Assembly: GCA_026874595.1 (NCBI GenBank)
Contig: CM049307.1
Location: forward strand, 72,640,643-72,704,642
DNA: 64,000 bases
Reading direction: 5' to 3'
Origin: Sipunculus nudus
Taxonomy: Eukaryota > Annelida > Sipuncula > Golfingiida > Sipunculidae
The position numbers and the translations under genes are program-made. Positions 392 to 61,282 of the stretch are shown piece after piece. Numbering within the stretch: the first letter of the stretch is position 1; each line of letters opens with the position of its first letter. Below the pieces are notes generated by a model. It worked only from the letters and a program-made list of their open reading frames with translations. It was not told the DNA's origin and ran no database searches.

Positions 392-1628
392 CAGTACTCA
401 GTTCAGTGTCACATGCCAAATTGAATGGAGAAGTGATGAGACCAGATCCTGCAAGCTCTGATTACTCAGTGCTTGGCATGCTTGAGTGAGCACTGTCACT
501 TGTCTGAGTACTTCCTTGGGTACTGCTACTCAACATGCATCAGTGAACAAGATGTCTGTATGTTTATGCTTGATTTCTGTGTTACTCCAGTTTTTGATTA
601 TACCTTGTAAACTGTTTGTTTACAGTGTTTGTTGTTGGACTTGGGGGTGAACATTCTTGGGTTTCTGAGTACTTGATGACCCCCATGCATGAGTGAACAT
701 GGTCACTGTTTGTTCACACTGGACAGTTGTTTGACTCTGGTTTGTAAACAATCCAAGTAAATTGTTTATTTGCAAGATTTATTATGTGAATAATTGTTGG
801 AGCCACTGGGTACTTGTTACTCATCAGGTGTCAGTGATGATGGATATTGTTTTTCTGTCCTCGTAAGTGATGTGTTGTAAATTGTTTATTTTTCTAATTT
901 TAATGTTGATACTTGTTTGAGTACTTGTTTTGGCCTGTGAGTACTTGTTACTCATCATGAGTCACTGACCATGTCCCCTTTTTGTATGTATGATGGCTGT
1001 TCTATTACTGTCAATGATTATTAATTGTAAAATGTTGATTTACAGGTTTTATTGTGGATACTTGTTTGAGTTCTTGTTTGGACCCCTGAGTACTTGCTAC
1101 TCATTATGCATCAGGGATCATTGTTCATGTTTTGTGGCTGCTTTATTCTAGTGAGTAATAATGTGTTGTAAATTGTTTATTGACAAGATTTTTTGCTTGT
1201 AGCTTGTGTGAGTACTTGTTTTGGTGATGAGTACCTGTTAACCATGCATTATTGTAAATGGTCATTTCACCCTTCCATTTTTTTATATGGTTTGATTTAA
1301 AATTTCCCCAGAATGTCATATTATCTGACATACAAAGCATCTGAAAGCTGAAGAAGGTATGAAAGGGCCTGCCAGTTGATACATGTACGAGGGTTGAAAG
1401 AATAAAGGTCCATTTCATGTTTTGTGTATTGAAAATGTGCATTGAATATAGAGAATGTGAAATGATGGGGGGAAAAGTGGAAAAGATCTTGTTTTGACTT
1501 TTAAGAGGGAAGGTGATTGTGAAAGCAACAATTGGATCTGGAAGAAGTGCTGGCTCTGACAAGAGCCTTTGTCTTGTGAGACTGCAGGTCCTTGCCTGTC
1601 ATCAAGGCAAGAGACCTGAAGGATGACT

Positions 1629-2051
1629 TCAGAAGTGAGTCATGTCATTGGTGCCTGCTATTTCTCGCATGAGGAATTGTATTTCATCCAGCTCATGAGC
1701 AAAGCGACAGGTGTAGTCGTAGAGGGTAGAGCGGAAGCCTTCCAAGGTGGCCAGCTTGAGCTGGAGGTGGTAACGGTGTGTCTTGGTTTGGGTTGCAACT
1801 GCACGCTGGTATCGCACCATTGTGGCATTGAAGATGTTGTTGGTGTGCAGCAGCTGCTTGCAGGCAAACTGGAACCTGCTGTGGGTGGCATCAAACTGCT
1901 TCTGCAGGGCAACCACATCCAAACAGAGTTGAGTATCCATGATAACAAAGCGGTGTAGGCAGTTAACTGGTTTCACCTCAAAGGTTGAAAGAGATTTGAT
2001 CAGTTTACCATCATGCTTCCCTTTTATAATAAAACTCAGCAGTGCTGCCAT
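1629..2051 (-). CDS. ORF-A, 140-aa array protein of unknown function (copy 1)
   Basis: This is the array's principal ORF; I do not recognise the family. The protein starts MAALLSF, has a short basic N-terminal segment (K/H-rich around residues 10-20), and from about residue 40 to 130 looks largely helical with no Pro or Gly breaks until G105. It is rich in Gln, Leu, His and Thr, suggesting a coiled coil or helical bundle. No signal peptide or membrane span is evident, though the first ten residues are hydrophobic. It lacks any core-histone or H1 signature. Support for coding: intact in all 24 complete copies, no indels in 423 bp, higher GC than the spacer, and a histone-type stem-loop at 1552-1567, 61 nt past the stop. 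Against: by eye, replacement changes among copies (about 17) are at least as frequent as silent ones (about 8), so purifying selection is not demonstrated. This copy has His at 119 instead of Asp. Confidence 0.55.
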   Translation of the reverse strand: MAALLSFIIKGKHDGKLIKSLSTFEVKPVNCLHRFVIMDTQLCLDVVALQKQFDATHSRFQFACKQLLHTNNIFNATMVRYQRAVATQTKTHRYHLQLKLATLEGFRSTLYDYTCRFAHELDEIQFLMREIAGTNDMTHF

Positions 2052-2149
2052 CAGTACTCAGTTCAGTGTCACATGCCAAATTGAATGGAGAAGTGATGAG
2101 ACCAGATCCTGCAAGCTCTGATTACTCAGTGCTTGGCATGCTTGAGTGA

Positions 2150-2930
2150 GCACTGTCACTTGTCTGAGTACTTCCTTGGGTACTGCTACTCAACATGCAT
2201 CAGTGAACAAGATGTCTGTATGTTTATGCCTGATTTCTGTTTTACTCCAGTTTGTGATTATACCTTGTAAACTGTTTGTTTACAGTGTTTGTTGTTGGAC
2301 TTGGGGGTGAACATTCTTTGGTTTCTGAGTACTTGATGACCCTCATGCATCAGTGAACACGGTCACTGTTTGTTCACACTGGACAGTTGTTTGACTCTGG
2401 TTAGTAAAAAATCCAAGTAAATTGTTTATTTGCAAGATTTATTATGTGAATAATTGTTGGAGCCACTGGGTACTTGTTACTCATCAGGTGTCAGTGATGA
2501 TGGATATTGTTTTTCTGTCCTCGTAAGTGATGTGTTGTAAATTGTTTATTTTTCTAATTTTAATGTTGATACTTGTTTGAGTACTTGTTTTGGCCTGTGA
2601 GTACTTGTTACTCATCATGAGTCACTGACCATGTCCCCTTTTTGTATGTATGATGGCTGTTCTATTACTGTCAATGATTATTAATTGTAAAATGTTGATT
2701 TACAGGTTTTATTGTGGATACTTGTTTGAGTTCTTGTTTGGACCCCTGAGTACTTGCTACTCATTATGCATCAGGGATCATTGTTCATGTTTTGTGGCTG
2801 CTTTATTCTAGTGAGTAATAATGTGTTGTAAATTGTTTATTGACAAGATTTTTTGCTTGTAGCTTGTGTGAGTACTTGTTTTGGTGATGAGTACTTGTTA
2901 ACCATGCATTATTGTAAATGGTCATTTCAC
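2150..2930. repeat. Degenerate GAGTACTTG subrepeats in the unit spacer (representative)
   Basis: Six degenerate modules start near 2166, 2327, 2468, 2599, 2748 and 2889, spaced 131-161 bp. Each has a (G/A)GTACTTG...TACTCATCATGCATCAGTGA-like core and an AT-rich GTAAATTGTTTATTTACAG-like stretch. The same series occurs in every unit at +1660-bp steps. It lies upstream of ORF-A on the minus strand, where rDNA-type and other tandem gene clusters often carry spacer enhancers. Whether it is regulatory is unknown. The 123-139-codon minus-strand ORF overlapping its left part (for example 2803-3222) is broken in many units and is probably not coding. Confidence 0.75.
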
Positions 2931-3211
2931 CCTTCCATTTGTTTATATGGTTTGATTCAAAATTTCCCCAGAATGTCATATTATCTGACATACAAGGCAT
3001 CTGAAAGCTGAAGAAGGTATGAAAGGGCCTGCCAGTTGATACATGTGAGAGGGTTGAAAGAATAAAGGTCCATTTCATGTTTTGTGTTCTGAAAATGTGC
3101 ATTGAATATAGAGAATGTGAATTGATGGGGGGAAAAGTGGAAAAGATCTTGTTTTGACTTTTAAGAGGGAAGGTGATTGTGAAAGCAACAATTGGATCTG
3201 GAAGAAGTGCT

Positions 3212-3227
3212 GGCTCTGACAAGAGCC
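3212..3227 (-). promoter_or_regulatory. Histone-type 3' stem-loop downstream of ORF-A (representative; one per unit)
   Basis: The minus strand reads GGCTCTTGTCAGAGCC: a perfect 6-bp stem, GGCTCT/AGAGCC, with a 4-nt loop TGTC. ACAAA comes just before it and AGCA after. The histone mRNA element is usually GGCTCTTTTCAGAGCC with a CAAA lead and an ACCCA-like tail. Only the second loop base differs, and the loop U1 and U3 that matter for SLBP recognition in known cases are kept. It starts 61 nt after the ORF-A stop, a typical histone distance. It recurs 62-77 bp below the low coordinate of every complete ORF-A copy, with one wobble variant in copies 11 and 20. I see no clear purine-rich downstream element (CAAGAAAGA type). 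Confidence 0.6.
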
Positions 3228-3244
3228 TTTGTCTTGTGAGACTG

Positions 3245-3278
3245 CAGGTCCTTGCCTGTCATCAAGGCAAGAGACCTG
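3245..3278 (-). promoter_or_regulatory. Second hairpin between the ORF-A stop and the histone-type stem-loop (representative)
   Basis: CAGGTC and CTTGCCT pair with AGGCAAG and GACCTG around a 7-nt loop, with a single bulged A. The result is a 13-bp stem in the presumed 3' UTR. It recurs in each unit. In about a third of units a G-to-A change (gcaggtcc to gcaagtcc) breaks one pair, so it is less constrained than the neighbouring stem-loop. Confidence 0.45.
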
Positions 3279-3288
3279 AAGGATGACT

Positions 3289-3711
3289 TCAGAAGTGAGT
3301 CATGTCATTGGTGCCTGCTATTTCTCGCATGAGGAATTGTATTTCATCCAGCTCATGAGCAAAGCGACAGGTGTAGTCGTAGAGGGTAGAGCGGAAGCCT
3401 TCCAAGGTGGCCAGCTTGAGCTGGAGGTGGTAACGGTGTGTCTTGGTTTGGGTTGCAACTGCACGCTGGTATCGCACCATTGTGGCATTGAAGATGTTGT
3501 TGGTGTGCAGCAGCTGCTTGCAGGCAAACTGGTACCTGCTGTGGGTGGCATCAAACTGCTTCTGCAGGGCAACCACATCCAAACAGAGTTGAGTATCCAT
3601 GATAACAAAGCGGTGTAGGCAGTTAACTGGTTTCACCTCAAAGGTTGAAAGAGATTTAATCAGTTTACCATCATGCTTCCCTTTTATAATAAAACTCAGC
3701 AGTGCTGCCAT
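3289..3711 (-). CDS. ORF-A copy 2
   Basis: Intact 140 codons; variants F60Y and D119H. Stem-loop at 3212-3227. Cap-like motif CCATTCA (minus strand) at 3742-3748. Confidence 0.55.
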   Translation of the reverse strand: MAALLSFIIKGKHDGKLIKSLSTFEVKPVNCLHRFVIMDTQLCLDVVALQKQFDATHSRYQFACKQLLHTNNIFNATMVRYQRAVATQTKTHRYHLQLKLATLEGFRSTLYDYTCRFAHELDEIQFLMREIAGTNDMTHF

Positions 3712-3748: not shown

Positions 3749-4948
3749 AGAAGTGATGAGACCAGATCCTGCAAGCTCTGATTACTCAGTGCTTGGCATG
3801 CTTGAGTGAGCACTGTCACTTGTCTGAGTACTTCCTTGGGTACTGCTACTCAAGATGCATCAGTGAACAAGATGTCTGTATGTTTATGCTTGATTTCTGT
3901 GTTACTCCAGTTTGTGATTATACCTTGTAAACTGTTTGTTTACAGTGTTTGTTGTTGGACTTGGGGGTGAACATTTTTGGGTTTCTGAGTACTTGATGAC
4001 CCCCATGCATGAGTGAACATGGTCACTGTTTGTTCACACTGGACAGTTGTTTGACTCTGGTTTGTAAACAATCCAAGTAAATTGTTTATTTGCAAGATTT
4101 ATTATGTGAATAATTGTTGGAGCCACTGGGTACTTGTTACTCATCAGGTGTCAGTGATGATGGATATTGTTTTTCAGTCCTCGTAAGTGATGTGTTGTAA
4201 ATTGTTTATTTTTCTAATTTTAATGTTGATACTTGTTTGAGTACTTGTTTTGGCCTGTGAGTACTTGTTACTCATCATGAGTCACTGACCATGTCCCCTT
4301 TTTGTATGTATGATGGCTGTTCTATTACTGTCAATGATTATTAATTGTAAAATGTTGATTTACAGGTTTTATTGTGGATACTTGTTCGAGTTCTTGTTTG
4401 GACCCCTGAGTACTTGCTACTCATTATGCATCAGGGATCATTGTTCATGTTTTGTGGCTGCTTTATTCTAGTGAGAAATAATGTGTTGTAAATTGTTTAT
4501 TGACAAGATTTTATGCTTGTAGCTTGTGTGAGTACTTGTTTTGGTGATGAGTACCTGTTAACCATGCATTATTGTAAATGGTCATTTCACCCTTCCATTT
4601 TTTTATATGGTTTGATTTAAAATTTCCCCAGAATGTCATATTATCTGACATACAAGGCATCTGAAAGCTGAAGAAGGTATGAAAGGGCCTGCCAGTTGAT
4701 ACATGTGAGAGGGTTGAAAGAATAAAGGTCCATTTCATGTTTTGTGTATTGAAAATGTGCATTGAATATAGAGAATGTGAAATGATGGGGGGAAAAGTGG
4801 AAAAGATCTTGTTTTGACTTTTAAGAGGGAAGGTGATTGTGAAAGCAACAATTGGATCTGGAAGAAGTGCTGGCTCTGACAAGAGCCTTTGTCTTGTGAG
4901 ACTGCAGGTCCTTGCCTGTCATCAAGGCAAGAGACCTGAAGGATGACT

Positions 4949-31932: not shown

Positions 31933-33168
31933 CAGTACTCAGTTCAGTGTCACATGCCAAATTGAATGGAGAAGTGATGAGACCAGATCCTGCAAGCTCT
32001 GATTACTCAGTGCTTGGCATGCTTGAGTGAGCACTGTCACTTGTCTGAGTACTTCCTTGGGTACTGCTACTCAAGATGCATCAGTGAACAAGATGTCTGT
32101 ATGTTTATGCCTGATTTCTGTTTTACTCCAGTTTGTGATTATACCTTGTAAACTGTTTGTTTACAGTGTTTGTTGCTGGACTTGGGGGTGAACATTCTTG
32201 GGTTTCTGAGTACTTGATGACCCTCATGCATCAGTGAACACGGTCACTGTTTGTTCACACTGGACAGTTGTTTGACTCTGGTTCGTAAACAATCCAAGTA
32301 AATTGTTTATTTGCAAGATTTATTATGTGAATAATTGTTGGAGCCACTGGGTACTTGTTACTCATCAGGTGTCAGTGATGATGGATATTGTTTTTCTGTC
32401 CTCGTAAGTGATGTGTTGTAAATTGTTTATTTTTCTAATTTTAATGTTGATACTTGTTTAAGTACTTGTTTTGGCCTGTGAGTACTTGCTACTCATCATG
32501 AGTCACTGACCATGTCCCCTTTTTGTGTGTATAATGGCTGTTCTATTACTGTTAATGATTATTAATTGTAAAATGTTTATTTACATGTTTTATTGTGGAT
32601 ACTTGTTTGAGTTCTTGTTTGGACCCCTGAGTACTTGCTACTCATTATGCATCAGGGATCATTGTTCATGTTTTGTGGCTGCTTTATTCTAGTGAGTAAT
32701 AATGTGTTGTAAATTGTTTATTGACAAGATTTTTTGTGTGTAGCTTGTGTGAGTACTTGTTTTGGTGATGAGTACTTGTTAACCATGCATTATTGTAAAT
32801 GGTCATTTCACCCTTCCATTTGTCTATATGTTATGATTTAAAATTTCCCCAGAATGCCAAATTATCTGACATACAAGGCATCTGAAAGCTGTAGAAGGTA
32901 TAAAAGGGCCTGCCAGTTGATACATGTGAGAGGGTTGAAAGAATAAAGGTCCATTTCATGTTTTGTGTACTGAAAATGTGCATTGAATATAGAGAATGTG
33001 AATTGATGGGGGGAAAGTGGAAAAGATCTTGTTTTGACTTTTAAGAGGGAAGGTGATTGTGAAAGCAACAATTGGATCTGGAAGAAGTGCTGGCTCCGAC
33101 AAGAGCCTTTGTCTTGTGAGACTGCAAGTCCTTGCCTGTCATCAAGGCAAGAGACCTGAAGGATGACT

Positions 33169-33591
33169 TCAGAAGTGAGTCATGTCATTGGTGCCTGCTA
33201 TTTCTCGCATGAGGAATTGTATTTCATCCAGCTCATCAGCAAAGCGACAGGTGTAGTCGTAGAGGGTAGAGCGGAAGCCTTCCAAGGTGGCCAGCTTGAG
33301 CTGGAGGTGGTAACGGTGTGTCTTGGTTTGGGTTGCAACTGCACGCTGGTATCGCACCATTGTGGCATTGAAGATGTTGTTGGTGTGCAGCAGCTGCTTG
33401 CAGGCAAACTGGAACCTGCTGTGGGTGGAATCAAACTGCTTCTGCAGGGCAACCACATTCAAACAGAGTTGAGTATCCATGATAACAAAGGGGTGTAGGC
33501 AGTTAACTGGTTTCACCTCAAAGGTTGAAAGAGATTTGATCAGTTTACCATCATGCTTCCCTTTTATAATAAAACTTAACAGTGCTGCCAT
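33169..33591 (-). CDS. ORF-A copy 20 (diverged)
   Basis: Intact 140 codons with R34P, D45N and A55S plus two silent changes in the Leu codons near residue 4. The stem-loop at 33092-33107 has the same U-G wobble as copy 11. Confidence 0.5.
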   Translation of the reverse strand: MAALLSFIIKGKHDGKLIKSLSTFEVKPVNCLHPFVIMDTQLCLNVVALQKQFDSTHSRFQFACKQLLHTNNIFNATMVRYQRAVATQTKTHRYHLQLKLATLEGFRSTLYDYTCRFADELDEIQFLMREIAGTNDMTHF

Positions 33592-34827
33592 CAGTACTCA
33601 GTTCAGTGTCACATGCCATATTGAATGGAGAAGTGATGAGACCAGATCCTGCAAGCTCTGATTACTCAGTGCTTGGCATGCTTGAGTGAGCACTGTCACT
33701 TGTCTGAGTACTTCCTTAGGTACTGCTACTCAACATGCATCAGTGAACAAGATGTCTGTATGTTTATGCTTGATTTCTGTTTTACTCCAGTTTGTGATTA
33801 TACCTTGTAAACTGTTTGTTTACAGTGTTTGTTGTTGGACTTGGGGGTGAACATTCTTGGGTTTCTGAGTACTTGATGACCCCCATGCATGAGTGAACAT
33901 GGTCACTGTTTGTTCACACTGGACAGTTGTTTGACTCTGGTTTGTAAACAATCCAAGTAAATTGTTTATTTGCAAGATTTATTATGTGAATAATTGTTGG
34001 AGCCGCTGGGTACTTGTTACTCATCAGGTGTCAGTGATGATGGATATTGTTTTTCTGTCCTCGTAAGTGATGTGTTGTAAATTGTTTATTTTTCTAATTT
34101 TAATGTTGATACTTGTTTGAGTACTTGTTTTGGCCTGTGAGTACTTGCTACTCATCATGAGTCACTGACCATGTCCCCTTTTTGTGTGTATGATGGCTGT
34201 TCTATTACTGTCAATGATTATTAATTGTAAAATGTTTATTTACAGGTTTTATTGTGGATACTTGTTTGAGTTCTTGTTTGGACCCCTGAGTACTTGCTAC
34301 TCATTAGGCATCAGGGATCATTGTTCATGTTTTGTGGCTGCTTTATTCTAGTGAGTAATAATGTGTTGTAAATTGTTTATTGACAAGATTTTTTGTGTGT
34401 AGCTTGTGTGAGTACTTGTTTTGGTGATGAGTACTTGTTAACCATGCATTATTGTAAATGGTCATTTCACCCTTCCATTTGTTTATATGTTATGATTTAA
34501 AATTTCCCCAGAATGCCATATTATCTGACATACAAGGCATCTGAAAGCTGAAGAAGGTATGAAAGGGCCTGCCAGTTGATACATGTGAGAGGGTTGAAAG
34601 AATAAAGGTCCATTTCATGTTTTGTGTACTGAAAATGTGCATTGAATTTAGAGAATGTGAATTGATGGGGGGAAAGTGGAAAAGATCTTGTTTTGACTTT
34701 TAAGAGGGAAGGTGATTGTGAAAGCAACAATTGGATCTGGAAGAAGTGCTGGCTCTGACAAGAGCCTTTGTCTTGTGAGACTGCAAGTCCTTGCCTGTCA
34801 TCAAGGCAAGAGACCTGAAGGATGACT

Positions 34828-35250: not shown

Positions 35251-36488
35251 CAGTACTCAGTTCAGTGTCACATGCCAAATTGAATGGAGAAGTGATGAGA
35301 CCAGATCCTGCAAGCTCTGATTACTCAGTGCTTGGCATGCTTGAGTGAGCACTGTCACTTGTCTGAGTACTTCCTTGGGTACTGCTACTCAACATGCATC
35401 AGTGAACAAGATGTCTGTATGTTTATGCCTGGTTTCTGTTTTACTCCAGTTTGAATTTAAAGCTTGTAAACTGTTTGTTTACAGTGTTTGTTGTTGGACT
35501 TGGGGGTGAACATTCTTGGGTTTCTGAGTACTTGATGACCCTCATGCATGAGTGAACATGGTCACTGTTTGTTCACACTGGACAGTTGTTTGACTCTGGT
35601 TAGTAAACAATCCAAGTAAATTGTTTATTTGCAAGATTTATTATGTGAATAATTGTTGGAGCCACTGGGTACTTGTTACTCATCAGGTGTCAGTGATGAT
35701 GGATATTGTTTTTCTGTCCTCATAAGTGATGTGTTGTAAATTGTTTATTTTTCTAATTTTAATGTTGATACTTGTTTGAGTACTTGTTTTGGCCTGTGAG
35801 TACTTGCTACTCATCATGAGTCACTGACCATGTCCCCTTTTTGTGTGTATGATGGCTGTTCTATTACTGTCAATGATTATTAATTGTAAAATGTTTATTT
35901 ACAGGTTTTATTGTGGATACTTGTTTGAGTTCTTGTTTGGACCCCTCAGTACTTGCTACTCATTATGCATCAGGGATCATTGTTCATGTTTTGTGGCTGC
36001 TTTATTCTAGTGAGTAATAATGTGCTGTAAATTCTTTATTGACAAGATTTTTTGTGTGTAGCTTGTGTGAGTACTTGTTTTGGTGATGAGTACTTGTTAA
36101 CCATGCATTATTGTAAATGGTCATTTCACCCTTCCATTTGTTTATATGTTATGATTTAAAATTTCCCCAGAATGCCATATTATCTGACATACAAGGCATC
36201 TGAAAGCTGAAGAAGGTATGAAAGGGCCTGCCAGTTGATACATGTGAGAGGGTTGAAAGAATAAAGGTCCATTTCATGTTTTGTGTATTGAAAATGTGTA
36301 TTGAATATAGAGAATGTGAAATGATGGGGGGGAAAAGTGGAAAAGATCTTGTTTTGACTTTTAAGAGGGAAGGTGATTGAGAAAGCAACAATTGGATCTG
36401 GAAGAAGTGCTGGCTCTGACAAGAGCCTTTGTCTTGTGAGACTGCAGGTCTTTGCCTGTCATCAAGGCAAGAGACCTGAAGGTTGACT

Positions 36489-36911
36489 TCAGAAGTGAGT
36501 CATGTCATTGGTGCCTGCTATTTCTCGCATGAGGAATTGTATTTCATCCAGCTCATCAGCAAAGCGACAGGTGTAGTCGTAGAGGGTAGAGCGGAAGCCT
36601 TCCAAGGTGGCCAGCTTGAGCTGGAGGTGGTAACGGTGTGTCTTGGTTTGGGTTGCAACTGCACGCTGGTATCGCACCATTGTGGCATTGAAGATGTTGT
36701 TGTTGTGCAGCAGCTGCTTGCAGGCACACTGGAACCTGCTGTGGGTGGAATCAAACTGCTTCTGCAGGGAAACCACATTCAAACAGAGTTGAGTATCCAT
36801 GATAACAAAGGGGTGTAGGCAGTTAACTGGTTTCCCCTCAAAGGTTGAAAGAGATTTGATCAGTTTACCATCATGCTTCCCTTTTATAATAAAACTTAAC
36901 AGTGCTGCCAT
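36489..36911 (-). CDS. ORF-A copy 22 (most diverged)
   Basis: Still open for 140 codons but carries V26G, R34P, D45N, A48S, A55S, F62C and T70N, the largest load in the array. It shares three of these with copy 20, so the two derive from one duplication. Possibly decaying. Stem-loop at 36412-36427. Confidence 0.45.
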   Translation of the reverse strand: MAALLSFIIKGKHDGKLIKSLSTFEGKPVNCLHPFVIMDTQLCLNVVSLQKQFDSTHSRFQCACKQLLHNNNIFNATMVRYQRAVATQTKTHRYHLQLKLATLEGFRSTLYDYTCRFADELDEIQFLMREIAGTNDMTHF

Positions 36912-37830: not shown

Positions 37831-37941
37831 GAATTCAAAAATTAAACGAAACTTACCAAGTTGAAGTTTGATTGGAATTCTGTCGATCCTTGAGTCTGAA
37901 GAGATCACGTGAGATTGCAAGTCCGGAGCTCCCATGAGGCA
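37831..37941. repeat. DIRS 3' inverted terminal repeat with extension
   Basis: The outer 81 bp (37831-37911) are complementary to 37988-38068 with one mismatch. Bases 37901-37941 form the 41-bp core shared in inverted orientation with the 5' terminal repeat. Confidence 0.88.
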
Positions 37942-37987
37942 AGTTTCAGAGGACTACACATGATCGGGCTGGGTGTAACAGGGTGGG

Positions 37988-38104
37988 CACGTGATCTCTG
38001 CAGACTCAAGGATCGACAGAATTCCAATCAAACTTCAACTTGGTAAGTTTCGTTTAATTTTTGAATTCTGTCTCACCTCTCGTCTTACGAGATCACGTGA
38101 GATT
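37988..38104. repeat. DIRS internal complementary region (ICR)
   Basis: Two abutting blocks: 37988-38068 is complementary to the 3' terminus and 38065-38104 to the 5' terminus, overlapping by four bases. Together they spell the joined-ends junction expected of the circular DIRS intermediate. Confidence 0.88.
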
Positions 38105-38127
38105 TTTAGAGTTCATGTGTAGTCAGA

Positions 38128-39234
38128 CTATTGTGAGGCTTGTGTTAAGTTCTGAGTACCAATAACCGGTTTATTGTAATATTTAGTGAAGGTGGACTCT
38201 GCTGTCCAGCCTGCTGTTTTCAATATAGTGTCAATAGGGAGATTACCTCGTACTGCGGCAGATGTTGCTGCAGCTCTGGTGCTATGCGGTGTAAAGATTG
38301 ACATATCAATTCCTGCCTCTTTCAGTGTTGATTTAAGCCACCTGGATATTGTGTCCCTAGATACCGCTCTGTGTGGCTTTTGCAGGGTTAGGAAGAGCCT
38401 ATTTTCATCTTGTCTGTAACTACTTGTTCTTTTTATGTACTCTGATAACACAGTAACCACACATAAACGGCGATCTGGAGCATATGCTTTCAATGTTATT
38501 TCCTGTTGGTGCCTATTTGGAGCTGATTGTTTAACTAGATCACCTACTCTGAGTTTAATCTTTGAAGTGGTCAATGTAATATTGTCTACCCGTAATAAAT
38601 GCAGAAACTGTCCTCTTTGCCCTGTAAGGAGGGCTAGGAGTGTTAGCAGTTTATAGGATAAGAATTTTGTTGACAAGTCTCTTACTGGTGAGAGTGTTCT
38701 TAAATATTGTAACACTGTGTCTGTGTCCCATGTTACACAAGTTTTAGGGATGACCGGCCGAATATTAAATACCCCTTTTAAAAACCTGGTGACAAGCGGA
38801 TGACTACCAAAAGTGCAACCTTCAAATGGCTTGATGATTGTAGACAAAGCTGATCTGACTGTGTTTATTGCACTGTAACTGAGTCCTGATTTTACTAGTG
38901 TGCTCATAAACTCTAAAGCTTGTCCCAGAGATGGTGAAAAGGGATCCACTGACCTTTCACTACAGTACCTATTCCATTGGGAGAGGTAAGTTCGGTACTG
39001 TTTTTGTGTATTTTTCCTCCATGAACAGAGGATAACGGTTGCTGCTGCTGAAGGAATTTCTTGTTTTCTGAGGGCTTGCCTGACAAGAGGCAAGCCAGCA
39101 GAGTCATTTTCGTGAGTCTGTGAGTTTCCTGTGGTTTCTGTGGTAGTTGTAACGTTGTTTGGCTGTGCGGTAGTATGCGGGGGTGATCTGTCAGTAGCTG
39201 CATTGCTTTCGGGAACCACGGTTGTGTTGTCCAA
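38128..39234 (-). CDS. DIRS ORF3, tyrosine recombinase
   Basis: 368 codons. Core-binding SAM-like region about residues 60-155, catalytic domain about 165-355. Catalytic set: Arg207 in TGQRGQ, His317 and Arg320 in PHSTR, Trp343 in AGW, and nucleophile Tyr352 or Tyr353 in FTKYYNKP. The enzyme recombines the circular DNA intermediate with the target and replaces the DDE integrase used by LTR elements. The Thr/Asn-rich N terminus of about 50 residues lies in the overlap with ORF2, so the true start could be internal. The ORF is complete, with all expected catalytic residues present. Confidence 0.92.
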   Translation of the reverse strand: MDNTTVVPESNAATDRSPPHTTAQPNNVTTTTETTGNSQTHENDSAGLPLVRQALRKQEIPSAAATVILCSWRKNTQKQYRTYLSQWNRYCSERSVDPFSPSLGQALEFMSTLVKSGLSYSAINTVRSALSTIIKPFEGCTFGSHPLVTRFLKGVFNIRPVIPKTCVTWDTDTVLQYLRTLSPVRDLSTKFLSYKLLTLLALLTGQRGQFLHLLRVDNITLTTSKIKLRVGDLVKQSAPNRHQQEITLKAYAPDRRLCVVTVLSEYIKRTSSYRQDENRLFLTLQKPHRAVSRDTISRWLKSTLKEAGIDMSIFTPHSTRAAATSAAVRGNLPIDTILKTAGWTAESTFTKYYNKPVIGTQNLTQASQ

Positions 39235-39392
39235 AATGGTAAAATTACAATTCCTGTTGCCTGTTCTAGTATTATTTTCTTGATTACTTGTGCAAGGATG
39301 CTGAAAGGAGGAAAAGCATAAAAGTAATATATAGACCAGTCTATGGAAAAAGCATCTACAGCGAGAGCATGTGGATCAGGTTTCCAGGCAAC
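38913..39392 (-). pseudogene. Continuation of DIRS ORF2 beyond the TAA
   Basis: 159 further codons in the same frame as the RT-RNase H ORF. The first part has a PDPHA...DAFSIDWS-like block and a PFWTTQPWFP motif, both characteristic of the segment after RNase H in DIRS-group pol proteins. It overlaps the first 322 bases of the tyrosine recombinase ORF in another frame; overlapping ORFs are normal for DIRS elements. Its last part is low in conserved features and may be just the overlap. Confidence 0.75.
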
Positions 39393-41030
39393 TTAAGGTG
39401 TTACCTGATTGTTCAGCCTGGATGCAAAGAGGTCTATTTCAATAGTACCCCACAGGCTTGTCAACTGTTTAAACAGTTTAGGATTTAGCTGCCATTCTGC
39501 ATCATGATTTACCTCGCGTGATAATTTATCCGCCTCTACATTCTCCCTTCCAGGTAGATGTGCTGCTGACAGCCAAATGTTTCTCTCAACGCACCAGTCC
39601 CAAATTTTCCTAGCAAGAGCATACAGTTGAGGTTTTGTACCTCCTTGCTTGTTTATATAGGTTACAGCGGTGACATTGTCCATAAGTAGCCTGATATGTG
39701 TGTTGCTAAGACTATTGCAGAGAGATTGTAATGCTAAGAAAGCTGCCAGCAATTCTAAATAGTTAATATGATGTTTAGATTCACAACTATTCCAATTGCC
39801 ACCTGTTTTTTGATTTTCTAGCACTCCTCCCCATCCTGTGCCACTAGCATCTGTTGACAATGTGATGTCCGGCTTTCCCCTTCTCATGGGTTTTTCTACA
39901 GAATGTGCATTTCTAATCCACCATTTCAAGTCAGTAACTGCTTTATTAGAGAGCACCATTTTATGTTCATAGTCACCCTTACTCATTCTAACTGCCTCAG
40001 ATTTATCTAGCTCAATGTATTTTGTCCTAAGCGGTCCCAGCGAGACTCCTGGACAGCTTGATACGAGTATACCTAGTACCTCTGCTACCTGCCTGATTGT
40101 TGGACGGGGATATGCATTAAGTCTCTTGCAACACGATACTATGTTGTCTGCCTTCTCTTGTGTTAATGATACAGTCATTGTTTTTGAATTTAGAATGAAT
40201 CCTAAGAATTTTATCTCTTGAGAAGGAGTTAGGACTGATTTCTCATTGTGGACTAAAAACCCCAATCTAGTAAACAGTGAAACTGTATCTGTTACATTTT
40301 TTGCACACTCTTCAAAATCATCACCAATCAAAAGGGAGTCATCAATATAAGCTACATTTACATGCCCCTGTTGTCTTAGTGAGGAATAAACTGGTTTAAG
40401 CAGTTTAGTGAACAAGCGAGGAGCAGGCGACAGTCCGTTAGGCATGCAGGTAAATTTGAAAAACTTTCCCTTCCATGCAAAGCAGAGATATTTCTGAAAA
40501 TCCCTGTGCACAGGCACCGTGTAGTAGGCGTCCTTTAAGTCCACTGATGCTAAATAACAGCCTGGTGTGATTAAGTTGATTGCATGATCCAGTGACTCCA
40601 TTTTAAAGTGGTGGTATTCTATATACTCATTAAGGGCCTTCAAGTTCAGTATTACACGGTATTTCCCATTCTTTTTTGCTCTGAGAAATATGTTTGAAAA
40701 AACACTGCCCGGCTCAAAGCTTGTTTGCTCAATAACCTGTTTGTTCAATAAGTTCTCAATTTCTATTTGAATAATTTTCTCCTCTGCCGTGTTTAGTTTT
40801 AAAGGTTTTGGAATGAAGTTCCTTACAGGGGGGTAATTTGAGGTAAAGTTTAGTTTAACACCCATTACCATGTCCAAAATAAAATCATCTTCTGTTATTG
40901 TTTCCCACTCTTGATAATGTGATTTTATTTTTCCACCTACTGCCTCACATGGTTTACCACGCATTGATCTATCACTAGACATATGTAATGAATTGTCACT
41001 TGCCTGGGCTATACTTGATGTTCCTTCCAT
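39393..41030 (-). CDS. DIRS ORF2, reverse transcriptase-RNase H (ends at an in-frame stop)
   Basis: 545 codons. Reverse transcriptase motifs: VDLKDAY at residues 163-169 and YIDD at 228-231 (catalytic Asp pair). RNase H follows: TDASG near 393, the LELL glutamate near 425, MDN at 450-452 and EADKLSR near 499-505. After RNase H the DLFASR motif near 533-538 is typical of DIRS/Ngaro pol. The frame stops at TAA 39393-39395, but the same frame stays open beyond it to 38913 with further conserved-looking sequence. The stop therefore probably arose from one base change in a longer ORF. No Dam-like methyltransferase motif is evident. The product copies the element's RNA into DNA and degrades the template RNA. 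Confidence 0.9.
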   Translation of the reverse strand: MEGTSSIAQASDNSLHMSSDRSMRGKPCEAVGGKIKSHYQEWETITEDDFILDMVMGVKLNFTSNYPPVRNFIPKPLKLNTAEEKIIQIEIENLLNKQVIEQTSFEPGSVFSNIFLRAKKNGKYRVILNLKALNEYIEYHHFKMESLDHAINLITPGCYLASVDLKDAYYTVPVHRDFQKYLCFAWKGKFFKFTCMPNGLSPAPRLFTKLLKPVYSSLRQQGHVNVAYIDDSLLIGDDFEECAKNVTDTVSLFTRLGFLVHNEKSVLTPSQEIKFLGFILNSKTMTVSLTQEKADNIVSCCKRLNAYPRPTIRQVAEVLGILVSSCPGVSLGPLRTKYIELDKSEAVRMSKGDYEHKMVLSNKAVTDLKWWIRNAHSVEKPMRRGKPDITLSTDASGTGWGGVLENQKTGGNWNSCESKHHINYLELLAAFLALQSLCNSLSNTHIRLLMDNVTAVTYINKQGGTKPQLYALARKIWDWCVERNIWLSAAHLPGRENVEADKLSREVNHDAEWQLNPKLFKQLTSLWGTIEIDLFASRLNNQVTP

Positions 41031-41040
41031 TTTGTTTATT

Positions 41041-42252
41041 TCAGCGCGGCCTTGTTTTGTGTTGTTTGTGCCTCTCTTGCCTGTATGACTGTCCTTTCAT
41101 CCCTAAAAAAGGCTTTGTTACTGGTGCTTTGCCCTTTGTGCTTGTGTGTGTTTGCGACTTGTAGTGACTGTTGTTACTCCTGTAGTTTCCTTGGTGTACT
41201 AGACGCTGAGACAGGGCATTTGAATCCTGGATTCTTTGCATAGATTGCTGCAGATTATCACCAAACAACAAGTCTGTTACTGGCACGTCTGCTTTACAGA
41301 GTTCTTTGAATTGGCCCTGCAGGTCCCCCTTTAACAGCTCCCTCCTGCGCAAATTAAGTTCATGATTGGCATGACTGATGATAGCAGTACCATCCATCAG
41401 TTGTCTTATCATGCCGTCCAGATTAACATCATTAATGGACTTCGTGCCCATTTTTAGCTGCAACAGCGTATCAGCTACTTGGATAGATGGGGTAACCCCT
41501 TTCAAGATGGCTGCTTGGACCCGCTGAAGTCTATTGTCTCTTAGCTTTGTATCCTGCCTAAGCTTACTCCAGACTTCTTTGTTAACTCTTGTGCCCTTGA
41601 GTTTTGTCAGATTTGCAGGGGTCAGTACTGAGTCTATCTTCTCCTTTACAGTATCACTAGGATTACCTGTAATGATTTTGTCCACTAACTCTGCGAGTTT
41701 AGGGTTAATTTCAGGGCCAAGATCTTCTCGCTTTTCAAATGACAAAGCTATCTGATCTAAAAATTCAGACTCACCATTGCTGTTAGCTTGAGAAGCAGGT
41801 ACAGAGTCCAAGAGCTGGTTAAGTTCAGTGTCTTGATCGTAAGCCTCTGTGTCCTCCTCATCACTGTCAACATGAGGAGTGTTCCCGGTGAGCGCATGGC
41901 CGCCATCTTGACTTGGAGTGGCACTGGCTCCACTGGTCCCCGGGGTTTGGTCTGAACTGTTGTATCCCTGGTTTTGCTTAAGTTGTCTAATTTCCTGTTG
42001 CATGCCTTGTATAGTGTTGGCTAATGCGGCGTGATTTGCCTCAGAGCTTTCCTTAAAGTCTCTGAACGCGGCCAGCAGGGCGAGCATCTGGGAATCCCCC
42101 TTCTCAGGGCTAGCATCTCGGCAACTTGACTCCAGCTCACTGGGTCTGTCTGCCATTGCTTCCCGGGGTCCCGATTCTTGGATTTTCCTTAACTTAGGCT
42201 GAACATGGCTGCTCCTAGAGCTAGCTGAAGGCCGCTTGCCCTTGTTATCCAT
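41041..42252 (-). CDS. DIRS ORF1, gag-like protein
   Basis: 403 codons, first in the coding order of the DIRS element, starting near its 5' end after about 270 bp of leader. It starts MDNKGKRPSAS, with a basic, Ser-rich N terminus. A predicted helical or coiled-coil stretch follows near residues 55-95, then an acidic linker around residues 125-160, and a basic, Gln/His-rich tail (KGKAPVTKP...HKTRPR) that could bind nucleic acid. No CCHC knuckle is present, which is usual for DIRS ORF1. Its stop is 10 bases before the RT ORF's first Met, in another frame. Assignment rests on position and composition, not on a recognised domain. Confidence 0.75.
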   Translation of the reverse strand: MDNKGKRPSASSRSSHVQPKLRKIQESGPREAMADRPSELESSCRDASPEKGDSQMLALLAAFRDFKESSEANHAALANTIQGMQQEIRQLKQNQGYNSSDQTPGTSGASATPSQDGGHALTGNTPHVDSDEEDTEAYDQDTELNQLLDSVPASQANSNGESEFLDQIALSFEKREDLGPEINPKLAELVDKIITGNPSDTVKEKIDSVLTPANLTKLKGTRVNKEVWSKLRQDTKLRDNRLQRVQAAILKGVTPSIQVADTLLQLKMGTKSINDVNLDGMIRQLMDGTAIISHANHELNLRRRELLKGDLQGQFKELCKADVPVTDLLFGDNLQQSMQRIQDSNALSQRLVHQGNYRSNNSHYKSQTHTSTKGKAPVTKPFLGMKGQSYRQERHKQHKTRPR

Positions 42253-42525
42253 CCTTCAATGTTTGTTTACAAACAGTTCTTTTCGGTCCCACAAGCGCGT
42301 GAGCGTGAAATCAGTAGTCCGTTCACAACTAACAGCTAAACTAAACTCTGAACGTCTAAATAACCTAAAACAACTATGGAACTAATGAAAAACTGATTCT
42401 ACAATACAGCCACGATCAGTAGAGCAAGAGAACACTTCTGTACGGTCGAAACCTCAGCCAGAATATGATATTAAATGACCCGCTAGTAACTTACCTTACA
42501 AGCCTCACGGGAACCGGAAGTGCAT

Positions 42526-42590
42526 TGCCTCATGGGAGCTCCGGACTTGCAATCTCACGTGATCTCGTAAGACGAGAGGTGAGACAGAAT
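42526..42590. repeat. DIRS 5' inverted terminal repeat
   Basis: Bases 42526-42566 are the perfect 41-bp reverse complement of 37901-37941 at the other end. The outermost 40 bp (42551-42590) are the perfect reverse complement of the internal region 38065-38104. Confidence 0.9.
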
Positions 42591-45207: not shown

Positions 45208-45358
45208 CAACCCTGTTTTCAGCGAATACATGTAATTGCTTGTCAACTACCTGTATTCTAGTTGTGTGTGGTTATTTCACCTTTCCATTTGTTTATATGT
45301 AATGATTTAAATTTTCCCAGAATGCAATATTATCTGACATACAAGGCATCTGAAAGCT
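45208..45358. repeat. Truncated terminal array unit with rearranged spacer
   Basis: After the matching spacer sequence ending TTGTAAACTG, the last unit switches to about 62 bp of unrelated sequence. It then resumes about 1 kb further on in unit terms (CCTTCCATTTGTTTATATG-like) and stops at GGCATCTGAAAGCT. So about 1 kb of subrepeats is deleted or replaced at the array edge. Confidence 0.8.
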
Positions 45359-45432
45359 AATAATAAATGAAAAGGTGAATTCTGTCACATATTTGTCGAA
45401 TCCAAGGGTACACTCCATAATGAGGATGATTA

Positions 45433-46400
45433 TTAGGGCTTCGCTTGAAAAGCGGGTGCACATAGTAATCGACCTGTCCGTCTGTCTGTCGTGCCGTCCA
45501 TCTGTCCGTCTAGCTGTGTGTCTGTCCGTCCACAGATTCTTTTTCGCATGATAACTCCAGGTAGGATTGACGAATTGAGTTCAAACCTGAAATATTTATT
45601 AACCATCAATTATGGAAGATCCCTTTCGATTTTTGGGTCCAGAGGTCAAAGGTAAAAAAAAGTTATTCACAGTTTGGTGTTAAATTTTAGGTCCCTCTTT
45701 CAGCAGGGTAGAAATCATAATTGTAACCATAATTGTTTGTTCCACCTTAACAGTAGGACAGGTCCTCATGTCAACAGCAACAAGGCATGATATAAGGTCT
45801 TAGTCAGCCATTTTTCTGTAAGTTATGTGGTAAAAACCATTACTGATCACCTAGTAAGGTTGCGCTTTCTTAGCAAATATGCATGCAAAAGGACACACAT
45901 TGTTAACACAATAACTCGTAAAAAGTATTTCATATAAGGTCCCCAGACTCACGGCAATGATGGATCTTTTGATGGGCTACATTATGTTTGAAGATGGGTG
46001 ACCTTGATGGATTTTCAAGGTCACAGAGGTGATAATGCTAAAATGATGTTAACCAAATAGCTCGCAAACAATTTGACTAACACTCACTGAACTTGCACCA
46101 GTAATGTTTGTTATTAAGGGCTAGGTCAAGTTTGAAGATGGATGACCTTGACAGAGGCGATAATTCTCAAGTGATGTTAATGCAATAGCTCACAAAGAAT
46201 TTGATGAACAATCAAATTTGTTTCTGCATAATAACTCCCCTAACATATGATGGATAGGATTCAAACATAACATGAATCACCCATGGCCTGAGGGAGAAGA
46301 TTATTGATATTTAAGTCAGAAGGAAAAAAAAAGTAATGCACAGTTTGGTGTTCAGTTGCTGGTGTCTCCTTCAGCAGGCCAGAAATGGATGAATCTTTTT
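45433..46400. repeat. Mollusc-type interspersed repeat with duplicated core
   Basis: It starts GGGCTTCGCTTGAAAAGCG, which can fold (CGCTT/AAGCG), followed by a GTCCGTCTGTCTGTC-rich stretch. Segments 45547-45720 and 46223-46390 match each other at about 670-bp spacing, including the CACAGTTTGGTGTT and TTCAGCAGG...AGAAAT blocks. A shorter duplication (GATGACCTTGA...GATGTTAA) lies between. No coding capacity. The right boundary is not clear. Probably a non-autonomous DNA element; family not identified. Confidence 0.5.
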
Positions 46401-47460
46401 CAAGTCACTGGTGTACAGCTGCATAACATTTTCACAGCATATTTTGTACAGACAATTTGAAGATTCCCCAGAAAAGGATACAATGGCCCAACACACCACA
46501 GTGGCTCTCATTTAAACCATGTTTGGACAAATCTATCTCCACTTCCAACATCTCAAGGAATTTGGACCTATTTTAGTGACCATCAACAAATTTACATTGA
46601 TATTCATATGTAGCCATTCTACACAACACCGCACATCTGTAGACCCAAGCCCAAGAACAGCTGAATCTCAGTTCAAGAGAATGACCATTTTATCACTACT
46701 AACCAGCAGCTGACTCTCTCTTATACTACAAGGTTCATGTACAGACTCAAGCCTCACATATAATAAGGCCAATTGAACATACAAATACTGGAAAAATATT
46801 TGACACAGCCCAGCCAAGACTTCAACCAAGAATAATTGGCACAGGTAATACACAAATACAGAAACTAAAAATGCATGCAGTTCTTTTATATAATTATTTT
46901 GATAGCTTTGAACATTTTCACTTTACCATATCTTTTCTTCCAGTTTATACATGTCAGCTGTTCTTTACAGGTTCTTAAATTTTCAAATATCACTCTATCA
47001 GCCCATGCTACTAAAGTACACCAAATTCACAGTACTTCAATTTATAAGGACTGCATCTTTTGCGGGGCCCTTCCTGACCTGTCAGGTTTCTAGTTACAAG
47101 AATTATTCTTTGTCTGGAACTGCGCCATATGATGCATGTAAAGGGGCTAGTCATGATACAGGACTTGAACCTGATACCTTTTATAAGAATCTGTTTGGAA
47201 CTTATCTGGATCCATTATGCAGTTGTCCAAGAGATGTGTTTATCGAGAATCTTATGCTGAAGGTAGGTGAAGATGTTGACATTCTAGAAAAAATTGCGCT
47301 TGGGTCTATATTTGGAGGCCAAAACTAACAGTGAATTTCCACCCCTAGGATTAATAAAGAGAAAAAAAAACAAGGAAAAAAGATGGTGATTCTCTTGCTG
47401 ATAAATTGACCAAGGACTGCTACCTCTTGTTCTCTTTTCTGCAAGGTGGCCCTGTGAATG
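46401..47460. other. Unassigned AT-rich stretch; one unrecognised open frame
   Basis: I identify nothing firm here. A plus-strand frame at 46951-47328 is open for 125 codons and ends LEKIALGSIFGGQN, but matches no family I know. It may be the decayed 5' part of the LINE that follows. Confidence 0.3.
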
Positions 47461-47499
47461 AGGTGAAGGAGGTGCTGAGTGCAGCTCCGGACAGGTTGA

Positions 47500-48493
47500 A
47501 CATGACAGTGACAGTTATGTGACGGAAGTACATATAAAGTAGATGATGCTTTGCATACCTTTACAGTTGGTGAACAACACCAATCAGACACACAGGTTCC
47601 ATAATGTATACAGCAGTGTATTTTAGTATCAAGTACTGACACATAATCTGATGGAAATGGAAAACAAGAAAATACTTGAGGAAAACAAACAACTAGAGTG
47701 TCAAAATAACACACTTGAAAAAGAACTGTTAATTCTTCAGTCCAAGGTGGATGCTGTTTCAGGGTCATTGTTGCAAACTGAGATCCACTCATTACAAGGA
47801 ACCATAAAGTCAACAAAAATGACTTTCAGAGTGTTAAAGATAGATTTGAGAAAACAGAACAATTAACACAGTCTAACTGTGTATCCATTAAAAATATCAG
47901 GATGCGACTGAAAGTCACCAAAACCCCTCAGAATAATAACAATGGTCCAACATATTCTTCAGTATTGAGTCATACAGAGGTTTTTACTGCTCCGCCTTAC
48001 CCAGTTTCATGTCCGTCTATGAATGTTCAGTCAAAACAAAGTGACCGTGTCAGTATTCCGTTCGAGTGCCCTCCCTGGGATGGGAAGAAGTGCGTTGTTC
48101 CCTGGAATTTACCGATAGGACTACCACTACCTAAGCTAGGGATGCTGCGGTCTCCAGTAAAAACCAGCAGACGTGTGCGGTTAATGTGAGCACAATAGAA
48201 GGGTTGGATAAGTGTGATTCAGGTCGAGAGACTTGTTGTAGGTCAATTGATTTAAATGTTAAATTGATTCCTGTTATATCTCGACACAACACAATGTATT
48301 AACGTCCAAAAACTCTAAACATTATTATGTATTATGTGGGTAACATTCCGAACAGACTGAATGAACAGAAATTGTACAAATTTTTGCAAGATAATGATGT
48401 GATTGTGTTAGATGTAGTTATGTTACCAAGCAGGAATAATACAAGAAAGGCAGCAAAAATAACAGTTGACGTACACGTTACTCTGTTGAAGAC
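47500..48493 (+). pseudogene. LINE ORF1 remnant
   Basis: Broken into short frames. The 47651-47866 frame has a clear Glu/Lys/Leu heptad-like coiled coil (about residues 1-45). The 47902-48189 frame is unremarkable. The 48327-48493 frame begins YYVGNIPNRLNEQKLYKFL, which resembles the start of an RRM-like fold as found in LINE ORF1 proteins. The last frame is cut by the Gypsy element at 48493 and continues in frame at 53184 for a few codons before a stop. Confidence 0.55.
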
Positions 48494-48673
48494 TGTTATG
48501 TCCCACAGAAGAACCAGACCGAATAAAATGGCATAAACGGAACAAAACTTTAATCCAGGTTCCTAGTCATACATCAACATGGCCGATCCGCCTAACTCTG
48601 CGTCCGGTCACGTGATCCCCAAAAACACATGCCAAAACCCAAACTCGGTTACGGAAAGTGGAAATACATAACA
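48494..48673 (-). repeat. Gypsy 3' LTR
   Basis: 180 bp, the left copy on the plus strand. It differs from the 5' LTR at one base in the GAATAAAA(T/C)GGC stretch and one in AAAACC(C/T)AAAC. The reverse-strand polypurine tract GGGAGGAGA abuts it at 48674-48682. Confidence 0.95.
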
Positions 48674-48882
48674 TCTCCTCCCATCTTAGCTGAGACATCG
48701 CTTAATAAAGTTTTACCATAATTACATGTGAACTGGAGCAGTGGTATAAGTATCCAGATGTGTGTAATATAGTAAGTACAACTGATTACGAGTAAATGTA
48801 AAATTAAAACAAGTCTATACTTTGACATGTTAATGAAACAAAATAAAAACATCAAACATCGCTATACTGTGGCTCACACAAT

Positions 48883-49692
48883 TTACCAGTCTAACCTCTT
48901 TGGTTTCCGGATTACTCGTTTTGGTCGACTCTGAACCAAAGAGTTATCAACACGCGAGCTACTCTTACTATTAGCCAAAGTGTCATCAGAACTATTCGAG
49001 TTCTCATGCGCAACAGAAGATGTATCACATGAAGTACAAGCTTCAGCATCAGAGTCTTTAGCTTGAGTGTCACAAAAAGTGGTATCAATAGCAATAGGAA
49101 TCTCAGGCTGATAAACATTTGAATTACTCACAGGCACAGAGTCATTTGGTACAACTGGCACGGGTAACTGAGTAGGCCCTGAAGATCTCTGTACTTCAGG
49201 TGCAGGCTCATTCTGTGGCAATTCACCATTAACAACATCATCATAACACAATTTCACATGATCCATATGACGCCTCCAGACGCGACCATCAGACAATCGG
49301 ACAGTGAAACTAACAGGACTCAACTGTTCCTGTATCACACCAGAGACCCATTTGGGGCCCTTCATGAAATTTCTCGCGTAAACTTTGTCTCCAATAAAGA
49401 AACTACGCTGTTTGGCTTTCATATCATAGTGGTTCTTCATTTGTTCTTGTTTCTTTAGCACAACTGCCTCTGTATCAGGTCTAAGCAAATCAAACCTTGA
49501 CCTTAACTGGCGCTTCATGAGTAAAACTGAGGGTGATTCGTTTGTCGTAGCATGCGGAGTGATATTGTACGTCAGCAAGAATCTGTTCAATCGCGATTCC
49601 AGGGATCCTTCTTTGGATTTCTTTAACCCATTTTTGATAGACTGTACCGCTCTCTCAGCCAACCCATTACTTGATGGGTGGTACGGTGACAC
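48883..49692 (-). pseudogene. Gypsy integrase C-terminal part, after the frameshift
   Basis: 269 codons in another frame, continuing the integrase core. The third catalytic residue is Glu13 in SSNGLAERAV, followed by the conserved LLTYNITPHATTNESP block and a KGPKWVSGVI...GRVWRRHMDHVK chromatin/DNA-binding tail. The rest is a Ser/Asp-rich region that ends RPKRVIRKPKRLDW. The Met used here is only the first in frame; the part was translated as a continuation of pol in an intact element. Confidence 0.9.
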
Positions 49693-52067: not shown

Positions 52068-52085
52068 TGTAGGAATACCATTGAT

Positions 52086-52966
52086 CTAAAGTTCAACTTT
52101 ATATGCACCATTTGCGTTTTTACTTGACATATGATACATTTCATTATACTCTTCAGCGTTAACACGTTGCGACTCTCTCGGTGCCTTAGACTTCAAGCAC
52201 ACTTTAGCAAAGTGGTTCAGTCCGCCACAGCGAGTGCACTTTTTACCTTGTGCTGGACATTTACGGGTCTTCGGGTGTGGCCAACTACCGCCACAACGAT
52301 AACAAGTCTTTGAAGTAGAAGTATTACTAGGCCCATGGGGTTTTACTGGGGCTTTAAAGGGGGTCTTTTGTTTGAGTTTGTTTACACTCTGACTCACCGG
52401 AACCGGATGTGACGTAGGCGTGAGCTTGTCCTCCATCGCTCTTGTCTGATGACGTAAAGATTCCATTGTCCGGCCAAGTTTTAAAAGCTCTGACAAGGTT
52501 AACTGAGGCTTGAAAAGTCCTTCCTCCCTTAATTTCGATGACAGACACCGATGAATAATTTGAGATTTAATGTCCTTGTCCGGGTCATGGAATTCACAAT
52601 TGCTGGAAAGCGTACGTAAGCGAGCATAAAATGCATCCAAACTCTCTCCTACCTCCTGCCGCGCCTCTCTAAACATAAATAACTCGTACTCCACATTTCG
52701 CTTGGGGGCGAAAAAATTTGACAGAGCTGTCTGAGCGGTTTTGTATTCTCCTCGCCAACAGGTGCAGGGACTTGCAAGGTATTAAACACTGTATAAAGTT
52801 CCTCGCCGATTAAATGCAAGAGCATAGCACGCTTCTGTGCAGGTTTGTCGATGTCCGCAGCAGCTAAATAATTATCAAAACGCGCTAGCCATCTGAGCCA
52901 GCGCTGGGCCGCAGTATCCCGGGGCTCATACTCGAACATTGGCATCGAAAGACCCTCGGCAGCCAT
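52086..52966 (-). pseudogene. Gypsy gag, frameshifted
   Basis: The likely start is the Met codon at 52964-52966 (MAAEGLSMP), just inside the leader. The N-terminal part is rich in Trp and Arg (RWLRWLARF), as in Gypsy gag. The frame changes near 52740-52760. The second part (through 52086) has MFREARQ..GESLDAFYARLR, a typical capsid motif, and two zinc knuckles: a variant CYRCGGSW...C and a regular CTRCGGLNHFAKVC. It ends at amber TAG 52086-52088, which is in the same frame as the downstream protease. Confidence 0.88.
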
Positions 52967-52998
52967 TGTGGGATCGTCAACTTGTCCTGTCGCCAAAA

Positions 52999-53178
52999 TG
53001 TTATGTCCCACAGAAGAACCAGACCGAATAAAACGGCATAAACGGAACAAAACTTTAATCCAGGTTCCTAGTCATACATCAACATGGCCGATCCGCCTAA
53101 CTCTGCGTCCGGTCACGTGATCCCCAAAAACACATGCCAAAACCTAAACTCGGTTACGGAAAGTGGAAATACATAACA
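52999..53178 (-). repeat. Gypsy 5' LTR
   Basis: 180 bp; should hold the promoter for the minus-strand genome. A primer-binding-site candidate, TGGCGACAGGAC (minus strand), is at 52984-52995, three bases inside. I cannot assign the tRNA. Confidence 0.95.
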
Positions 53179-53319
53179 AAGACCAGTAAGTTGGCCAGGT
53201 AATATCTATTGCCACCGTGGATAGGGCAAAGGTAAACTACTAGGTTAGATACAGGTTTACTGATCTTATTTTTGTCCTTTTTTTGTGTAGCATTTTCAGT
53301 CCACCGTTAAAATTTAAGT

Positions 53320-61199: not shown

Positions 61200-61282
61200 T
61201 TTAGTTAGTCTGCAGTACACTACTATACTGACTTGAATGGATAAGACCAACAATCATGTATCTATAATTTATATGTCAGTTT

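Follow-up and report, generated by a model that had tools for sequence, protein, structure and literature searches.

A tandem array in Sipunculus nudus carries a candidate non-histone gene with a histone-like 3′ stem-loop

Among metazoan mRNAs, non-polyadenylated ones ending in a stem-loop are described as exclusive to histones (PMC12775136, PMC12803260). A tandem array in the genome of Sipunculus nudus raises the question of whether this route is confined to histones, since its sequence suggests that a non-histone protein may be expressed in a histone-style manner. The array lies in a window of 64 kb (the whole stretch of DNA analyzed), for which an earlier note had proposed a multicopy tandem non-histone gene with a histone-type stem-loop.

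The array unit and its 3′ stem-loop

The array is built of 1,660-bp units arranged head-to-tail, each with one minus-strand gene. It takes up 45.2 kb at the left of the window, with its left end beyond the window edge; BLASTN places its right end at 45207. At least 24 near-identical complete gene copies are present in the window, and a 25th is truncated by the window start. The array is broken once, by a retroelement at 37838–42584. The features of the array and of the 3′ part of the gene, given for the copy at 3212, are as follows.

1–45207, minus strand: tandem array of 1,660-bp units (one unit as BLASTN query against the window)
3289–3711, minus strand: 140-codon ORF of the earlier note (ORF list; 24/24 copies)
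3245–3278, minus strand: second hairpin, in the 3′ UTR between the stop codon and the stem-loop (folding)
3228–3232, minus strand: 5′ flank of the stem-loop, ACAAA (24/24 copies; RF00032 model positions 1–5)
3212–3227, minus strand: histone-type 3′ stem-loop GGCTCT-TGTC-AGAGCC (RF00032 match; 24 copies)
3206–3211, minus strand: 3′ flank of the stem-loop, AGCACT (24/24 copies)
2836–2841, minus strand: nearest AATAAA downstream of the stem-loop (offset of 370 nt in the unit consensus)

The positions of the hairpin (3212–3227) and the ORF (3289–3711), their minus-strand orientation and the 61 nt between them agree with the earlier note, as does the occurrence of ACAAA ahead of the hairpin in all 24 units. 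The hairpin, a 6-bp stem with a 4-nt loop, lies 61 nt past the stop codon in each of the 24 complete gene copies. It had been described as identical throughout, which holds for its presence (24/24) but not for its exact sequence: 22 copies read GGCTCTTGTCAGAGCC, while those at 18152 and 33092 read GGCTCTTGTCGGAGCC, sharing a single A-to-G change that turns a U–A pair into U–G. The stem with GG...CC ends and the U residues at loop positions 1 and 3 are therefore perfect in 22/24 copies and carry one U–G pair in 2/24. Loop positions 1 and 3 are the most important for SLBP. By itself, the hairpin at 3212–3227 has a folding energy of −9.3 kcal/mol; its reverse strand also folds, but lacks the loop and the flanks of the family. 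Cleavage would be expected just 3′ of the hairpin.

The earlier note had proposed a comparison with the Rfam model of the histone 3′ stem-loop, RF00032. The comparison yielded a full-length alignment, from the first to the last model position and on the coding strand, at 21.7 bits (E 0.0054 when 1.8 kb was scanned with 4,227 families; E 0.19 with the whole 64 kb scanned), but this score does not reach the curated gathering cut-off of 34. In the whole-window scan, RF00032 was found at 22 places, which are the copies with the exact hairpin, all on the coding strand, and no match in the window attained any Rfam gathering cut-off. The flank, stem and loop agree with the model except that loop position 2 is G instead of U and position 4 is C instead of A; the downstream half fits poorly. 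When the unit consensus was dinucleotide-shuffled 5,000 times, a perfect GGYYYU-UNUN-ARRRCC hairpin appeared a single time, counting both strands; no such hairpin was found in 45209–64000. A search of viral contigs with the 20-nt pattern of the hairpin gave 0 matches. The second hairpin, at 3245–3278, is stronger than the stem-loop (−20.1 kcal/mol, z −3.53, 0/200 shuffles as stable).

The purine-rich downstream element for U7 is lacking, as had been noticed earlier: no AAAGAG, GAAAGA or GGAAAG occurs downstream in the unit, and the first 100 nt past the hairpin are pyrimidine-rich, with 33/100 purines. This is the largest gap in the histone-style reading. It need not be fatal by analogy with the bivalve Lucina pectinata, because its histone genes carry a purine-rich element near the palindrome only in some cases, and the element is displaced or undetected elsewhere (PMC6210712). 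These genes resemble the present one in having a stem-loop near the stop codon and differ in that they encode histones; the authors interpret the odd 3′ end of L. pectinata H1_B as a hint of replication-independence. In Hydractinia, the stem-loop and the purine-rich element are both present and are termed hallmarks (PMC5011920).

In the unit consensus, the 370 nt that follow the hairpin contain no AATAAA or ATTAAA, and AATAAA is found at 370, 404, 498, 511, 661, 768 and 781 nt. These seven signals could serve a real multicopy gene in which the hairpin does not act as a 3′ end of the histone kind and transcripts read through to polyadenylation at an AATAAA at least 370 nt downstream, a reading with which the missing purine-rich element, the G in the loop and the RF00032 score below the cut-off would also fit. 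However, the nearest signal is far away for a 450-nt gene and is located in an A+T-rich spacer (37.5% GC), in which AATAAA readily arises by chance. Read-through would furthermore reduce to coincidence a hairpin that is correctly placed and oriented and has an AAA flank, when the hairpin alone appears in one of 5,000 shuffles. We consider this alternative rather unlikely. The proposal of a multicopy tandem non-histone gene with a histone-type stem-loop is upheld by a hairpin on the coding strand, near the stop codon and distant from AATAAA.

Candidate promoter, start codon and coding sequence

The 140-codon ORF has neither an internal stop nor a frameshift in any of the 24 complete gene copies, in agreement with the claim that it is intact in all complete units; of its description as intronless, what stands is that it is uninterrupted in the DNA. 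Its length is weak evidence for coding, as 38/1,000 shuffles contain an ORF of at least 140 codons. The features of its upstream part, listed below together with the region beyond it, point to a different gene boundary.

3844–4545, strand unassigned: degenerate sub-repeats upstream of the TATA box of the 3212 copy (shifted by +1660 from 2184–2885)
3681–3688, minus strand: TATA box TATAAAAG (24/24 copies)
3653–3659, minus strand: initiator (YYANWYY) with its A at 3657 (24/24 copies)
3601–3657, minus strand: putative 5′ UTR of 57 nt, from the initiator A to the ATG, with no ATG inside
3289–3600, minus strand: proposed CDS of 103 residues from Met38, stop included (start context, codon bias and predicted fold)

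The TATAAAAG box is situated 23 nt inside the 140-codon ORF (3688–3681). The initiator reads TTAAATC in 3/24 copies, including the 3212 copy, and TCAAATC in the remaining 21, and in all 24 its A follows the first T of the TATA box at a distance of 31 nt. A TATA box typically lies 30–31 nt before the initiator A, so that the spacing of the pair, judged from sequence, is that of a promoter in 24/24 copies. TATA–initiator pairs of the TATAAAAG form occurred in 4/1,000 shuffles and those of a looser form in 25/1,000, with patterns written after the pair had been noticed. The pair is thus a candidate RNA polymerase II promoter. If RNA starts at 3657, Met38 would therefore be the first usable ATG, giving a product of 103 residues. 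The context of Met38 is GTTATCATGG in 24/24 copies; an A at −3 together with a G at +4 is favorable for initiation.

A boundary at Met38 is also indicated, independently of the promoter, by codon-position bias and by structure prediction. From Met38 onward, G or C occupies the three codon positions in 56/35/68 of 103 codons (p 2e-5), compared with 18/11/15 of the 37 codons before it (p 0.25, at low power). AlphaFold2 gives the 103 residues a pLDDT of 83.9 and a pTM of 0.68, and the 140 residues a pLDDT of 56.2 and a pTM of 0.36, with residues 1–38 below 50 and the same helices at only about 59–77 by block; both models are based on 8 near-identical alignment rows. The true protein is probably the 103 residues from Met38 rather than the product of 140 codons. 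The 140-codon protein of the earlier note is not supported, since the TATA box, initiator, start context, codon bias and predicted fold all favor Met38. The first 37 codons of the ORF, which overlap the promoter and the 5′ UTR, probably remain untranslated. The mRNA would come to about 450 nt: the 57-nt 5′ UTR, a 312-nt CDS with the stop codon, 61 nt up to the stem-loop, the stem-loop itself and a few further bases. Its layout would resemble that of a histone mRNA.

Sub-repeats upstream of the promoter recur every ~130–150 bp, with 61–85% identity to a reference copy, and carry the words GAGTACTTG, ATGCAT and TGTTTA(C/T). They were detected in the copy at 1552–3211, at 2184–2885, and have equivalents in other units; the coordinates 3844–4545 are a projection by 1660. 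In this respect, the region resembles spacers with repeated enhancers.

Predicted protein and variation among copies

The 103-residue consensus has a pI of 6.95, contains no proline and no tryptophan, and begins with the predicted N-terminal peptide MDTQLCLDVVALQK. AlphaFold2 predicts two long helices, 3–48 and 53–102. The histone fold consists of a short, a long and a short helix, and the two helices predicted from 8 near-identical sequences do not have this form. The protein is, as modeled, a two-helix hairpin and not a histone. Foldseek and VIA-align matches to the predicted model are generic helical hairpins. Pfam reports no histone family for the 140-residue, 103-residue or plus-strand frame, and an NCBIfam scan of an 86-codon frame gave no match. 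The layout and the length of 103 residues, which is comparable to that of histone H4, would fit a histone gene repeat whose CDS has lost its histone identity through decay or frameshift. Given the lack of a histone match in any of these frames, together with the two long helices of the predicted fold, we give this explanation hardly any credence.

Searches for relatives were conducted in several collections. Among ~5.8 billion proteins, of uncertain animal coverage, the 140-residue query gave 7 candidates, none at E 0.001, and the 103-residue query gave 0. Two 7-residue patterns found 99 stretches in GTDB genome contigs and no relative among them. One locus in viral contigs, with 15 residues at 80%, was judged a chance match. 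The Pfam family DPCD (E 0.13 and 0.063), sacsin as the only PDB match of the 140 residues (E 0.58 and 0.79), two PHROGs families (E 0.043 and 0.048) and one NCBIfam family (E 0.077) were rejected as too weak.

Variation among the copies was compared by region and by codon. Columns from the TATA box to the hairpin are less variable than those elsewhere (23/480 versus 105/1,182, Fisher p 0.004; 23 aligned units), with limits that were set after the anatomy was known. Within the 103 codons, 3 synonymous and 11 non-synonymous changes are present, against expected shares of ~25 and 72 per cent, and 3 and 6 remain without the two most changed copies. The ratio is near neutral, and purifying selection on the 103 codons is not visible among the copies. 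These changes do not argue for a constrained protein; in an array whose units exchange, young copies offer little power. The two most changed gene copies, at 33092–34750 and 36412–36911, have R34P, D45N and A55S in common, the latter with V26G, A48S, F62C and T70N in addition, and are perhaps a decaying pair.

The near-neutral change among the copies and the lack of a homologue would be compatible with satellite DNA in which array homogenization has fixed an ORF and a hairpin that both arose by chance. An ORF of this length occurs in 38/1,000 shuffles, as given above, and, if 3.1% of changes are expected to create a stop, a set of 21 changes free of stops is not unlikely. On the other hand, the TATA–initiator pair, the codon-position bias, the class of the hairpin and the less variable gene body agree with one another, and a confidently predicted fold begins at the same Met38. 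We therefore regard a satellite origin as improbable.

A plus-strand ORF of 111 codons (3283–3618) lies over the gene, is intact in 23/24 copies and has no Pfam match. It shows 6 synonymous and 10 non-synonymous changes; the copies therefore do not favor the minus-strand frame. Nor can codon-position GC alone pick the strand, because the plus-strand ORF reads identical columns. The third-position preference for C (0.42) in the minus-strand CDS and the predicted fold favor the minus strand. They also bear on a non-coding RNA gene, in which a TATA-driven RNA would end in two hairpins and the ORF would be incidental. The last 100 nt do hold two stable hairpins, and the persistence of the plus-strand frame illustrates how easily open frames are kept; nevertheless, the C preference and the predicted structure support a CDS, and among the 11 Rfam matches listed for 1500–3300, all but RF00032 are far below their cut-offs. 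We consider a non-coding RNA gene very improbable.

A proposed histone-style expression route

The best reading of the locus, which we hold with moderate confidence on the basis of its sequence, is a gene for a non-histone protein whose mRNA has a 3′ end of the histone type. Each 1,660-bp unit would constitute a single small gene, transcribed by RNA polymerase II and organized like replication-dependent histone genes, with a 103-residue non-histone product. Transcription would start 31 nt past the TATA box, within the 140-codon ORF, and translation at the former Met38. The message would be unspliced, about 450 nt long, with its 3′ end right after the stem-loop, where SLBP would be expected to bind, to guide cleavage and to take the place of a poly(A) tail. 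The dose would come from tens of copies, homogenized by unequal exchange. The protein would most likely be an oligomerizing two-helix hairpin, produced in bulk during a brief period, e.g., S phase or egg maturation. Against the histone-style reading stand the RF00032 score below the cut-off, the G at loop position 2, the absence of a purine-rich element and the absence of a selection signal.

Compared with the 3′ end of replication-dependent histone mRNAs (RF00032, SLBP/U7), the present one is alike in its 6-bp GGYYYU/ARRRCC stem, its 4-nt loop with U1 and U3, the AAA before the stem-loop, the 61-nt distance from the stop codon and the lack of a near AATAAA. It differs in the loop G2, the lack of a purine-rich element, the non-histone protein and the score below the cut-off. 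Animal tandem histone clusters likewise consist of short head-to-tail units with TATA-driven single-exon genes, but here there is one non-histone gene per unit, and Pfam finds no histone among the scanned frames of the unit. The poly(A) signal is distant, as in replication-dependent histone genes, while the product belongs to no histone sequence family. Thus, the 3′ end is histone-like on paper, and the gene is not classified as a histone gene, with a hairpin that falls under the RF00032 cut-off.

A wider reading is that a lineage-restricted non-histone gene took over the entire histone expression cassette, possibly without U7, for an orphan helical protein made together with histones or stored in the egg. 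The cassette would include the TATA–initiator pair, a single exon, short UTRs, an SLBP-type stem-loop replacing poly(A), and tandem amplification. This reading is tentative, and we place it just short of what we would call likely. Among the open-licence PMC papers listed in searches for such targets, no title or abstract opening names a non-histone SLBP target, which is no proof of absence in print. If the proposal is true, a multicopy non-histone gene with this ending would mean that the histone pathway can be borrowed; it would also provide a natural test of the loop tolerance of SLBP and of the need for a purine-rich element, and would point to a protein that cells need in amounts, or at times, similar to those of histones.

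Further observations concern the array and its surroundings. Between 1552 and 18151, the unit pairs 1552/11512, 3212/14832 and 4872/16492 differ at 1 site each, and neighboring units at 6–29 sites. Since non-adjacent units are near-identical and neighbors less so, recent block duplication or gene conversion is indicated. The insertion at 37838–42584, within one unit, has three minus-strand frames: one in the place of gag and without a Pfam match, one with reverse transcriptase and RNase H, and one with a tyrosine recombinase (Phage_integrase). We take it to be a DIRS-like retroelement. At 49623–52781, retroelement frames contain a zinc knuckle, protease, reverse transcriptase, RNase H and integrase, the first two below the Pfam cut-off; this element appears Ty3-like, as judged from its domain order. 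The right flank holds two diverged spacer pieces, in order and 17 kb apart, at 45269–45358 (unit 1368–1458 at 89%) and 62700–62767 (unit 1477–1545 at 84%), as if they were an old array end later split by inserted DNA.
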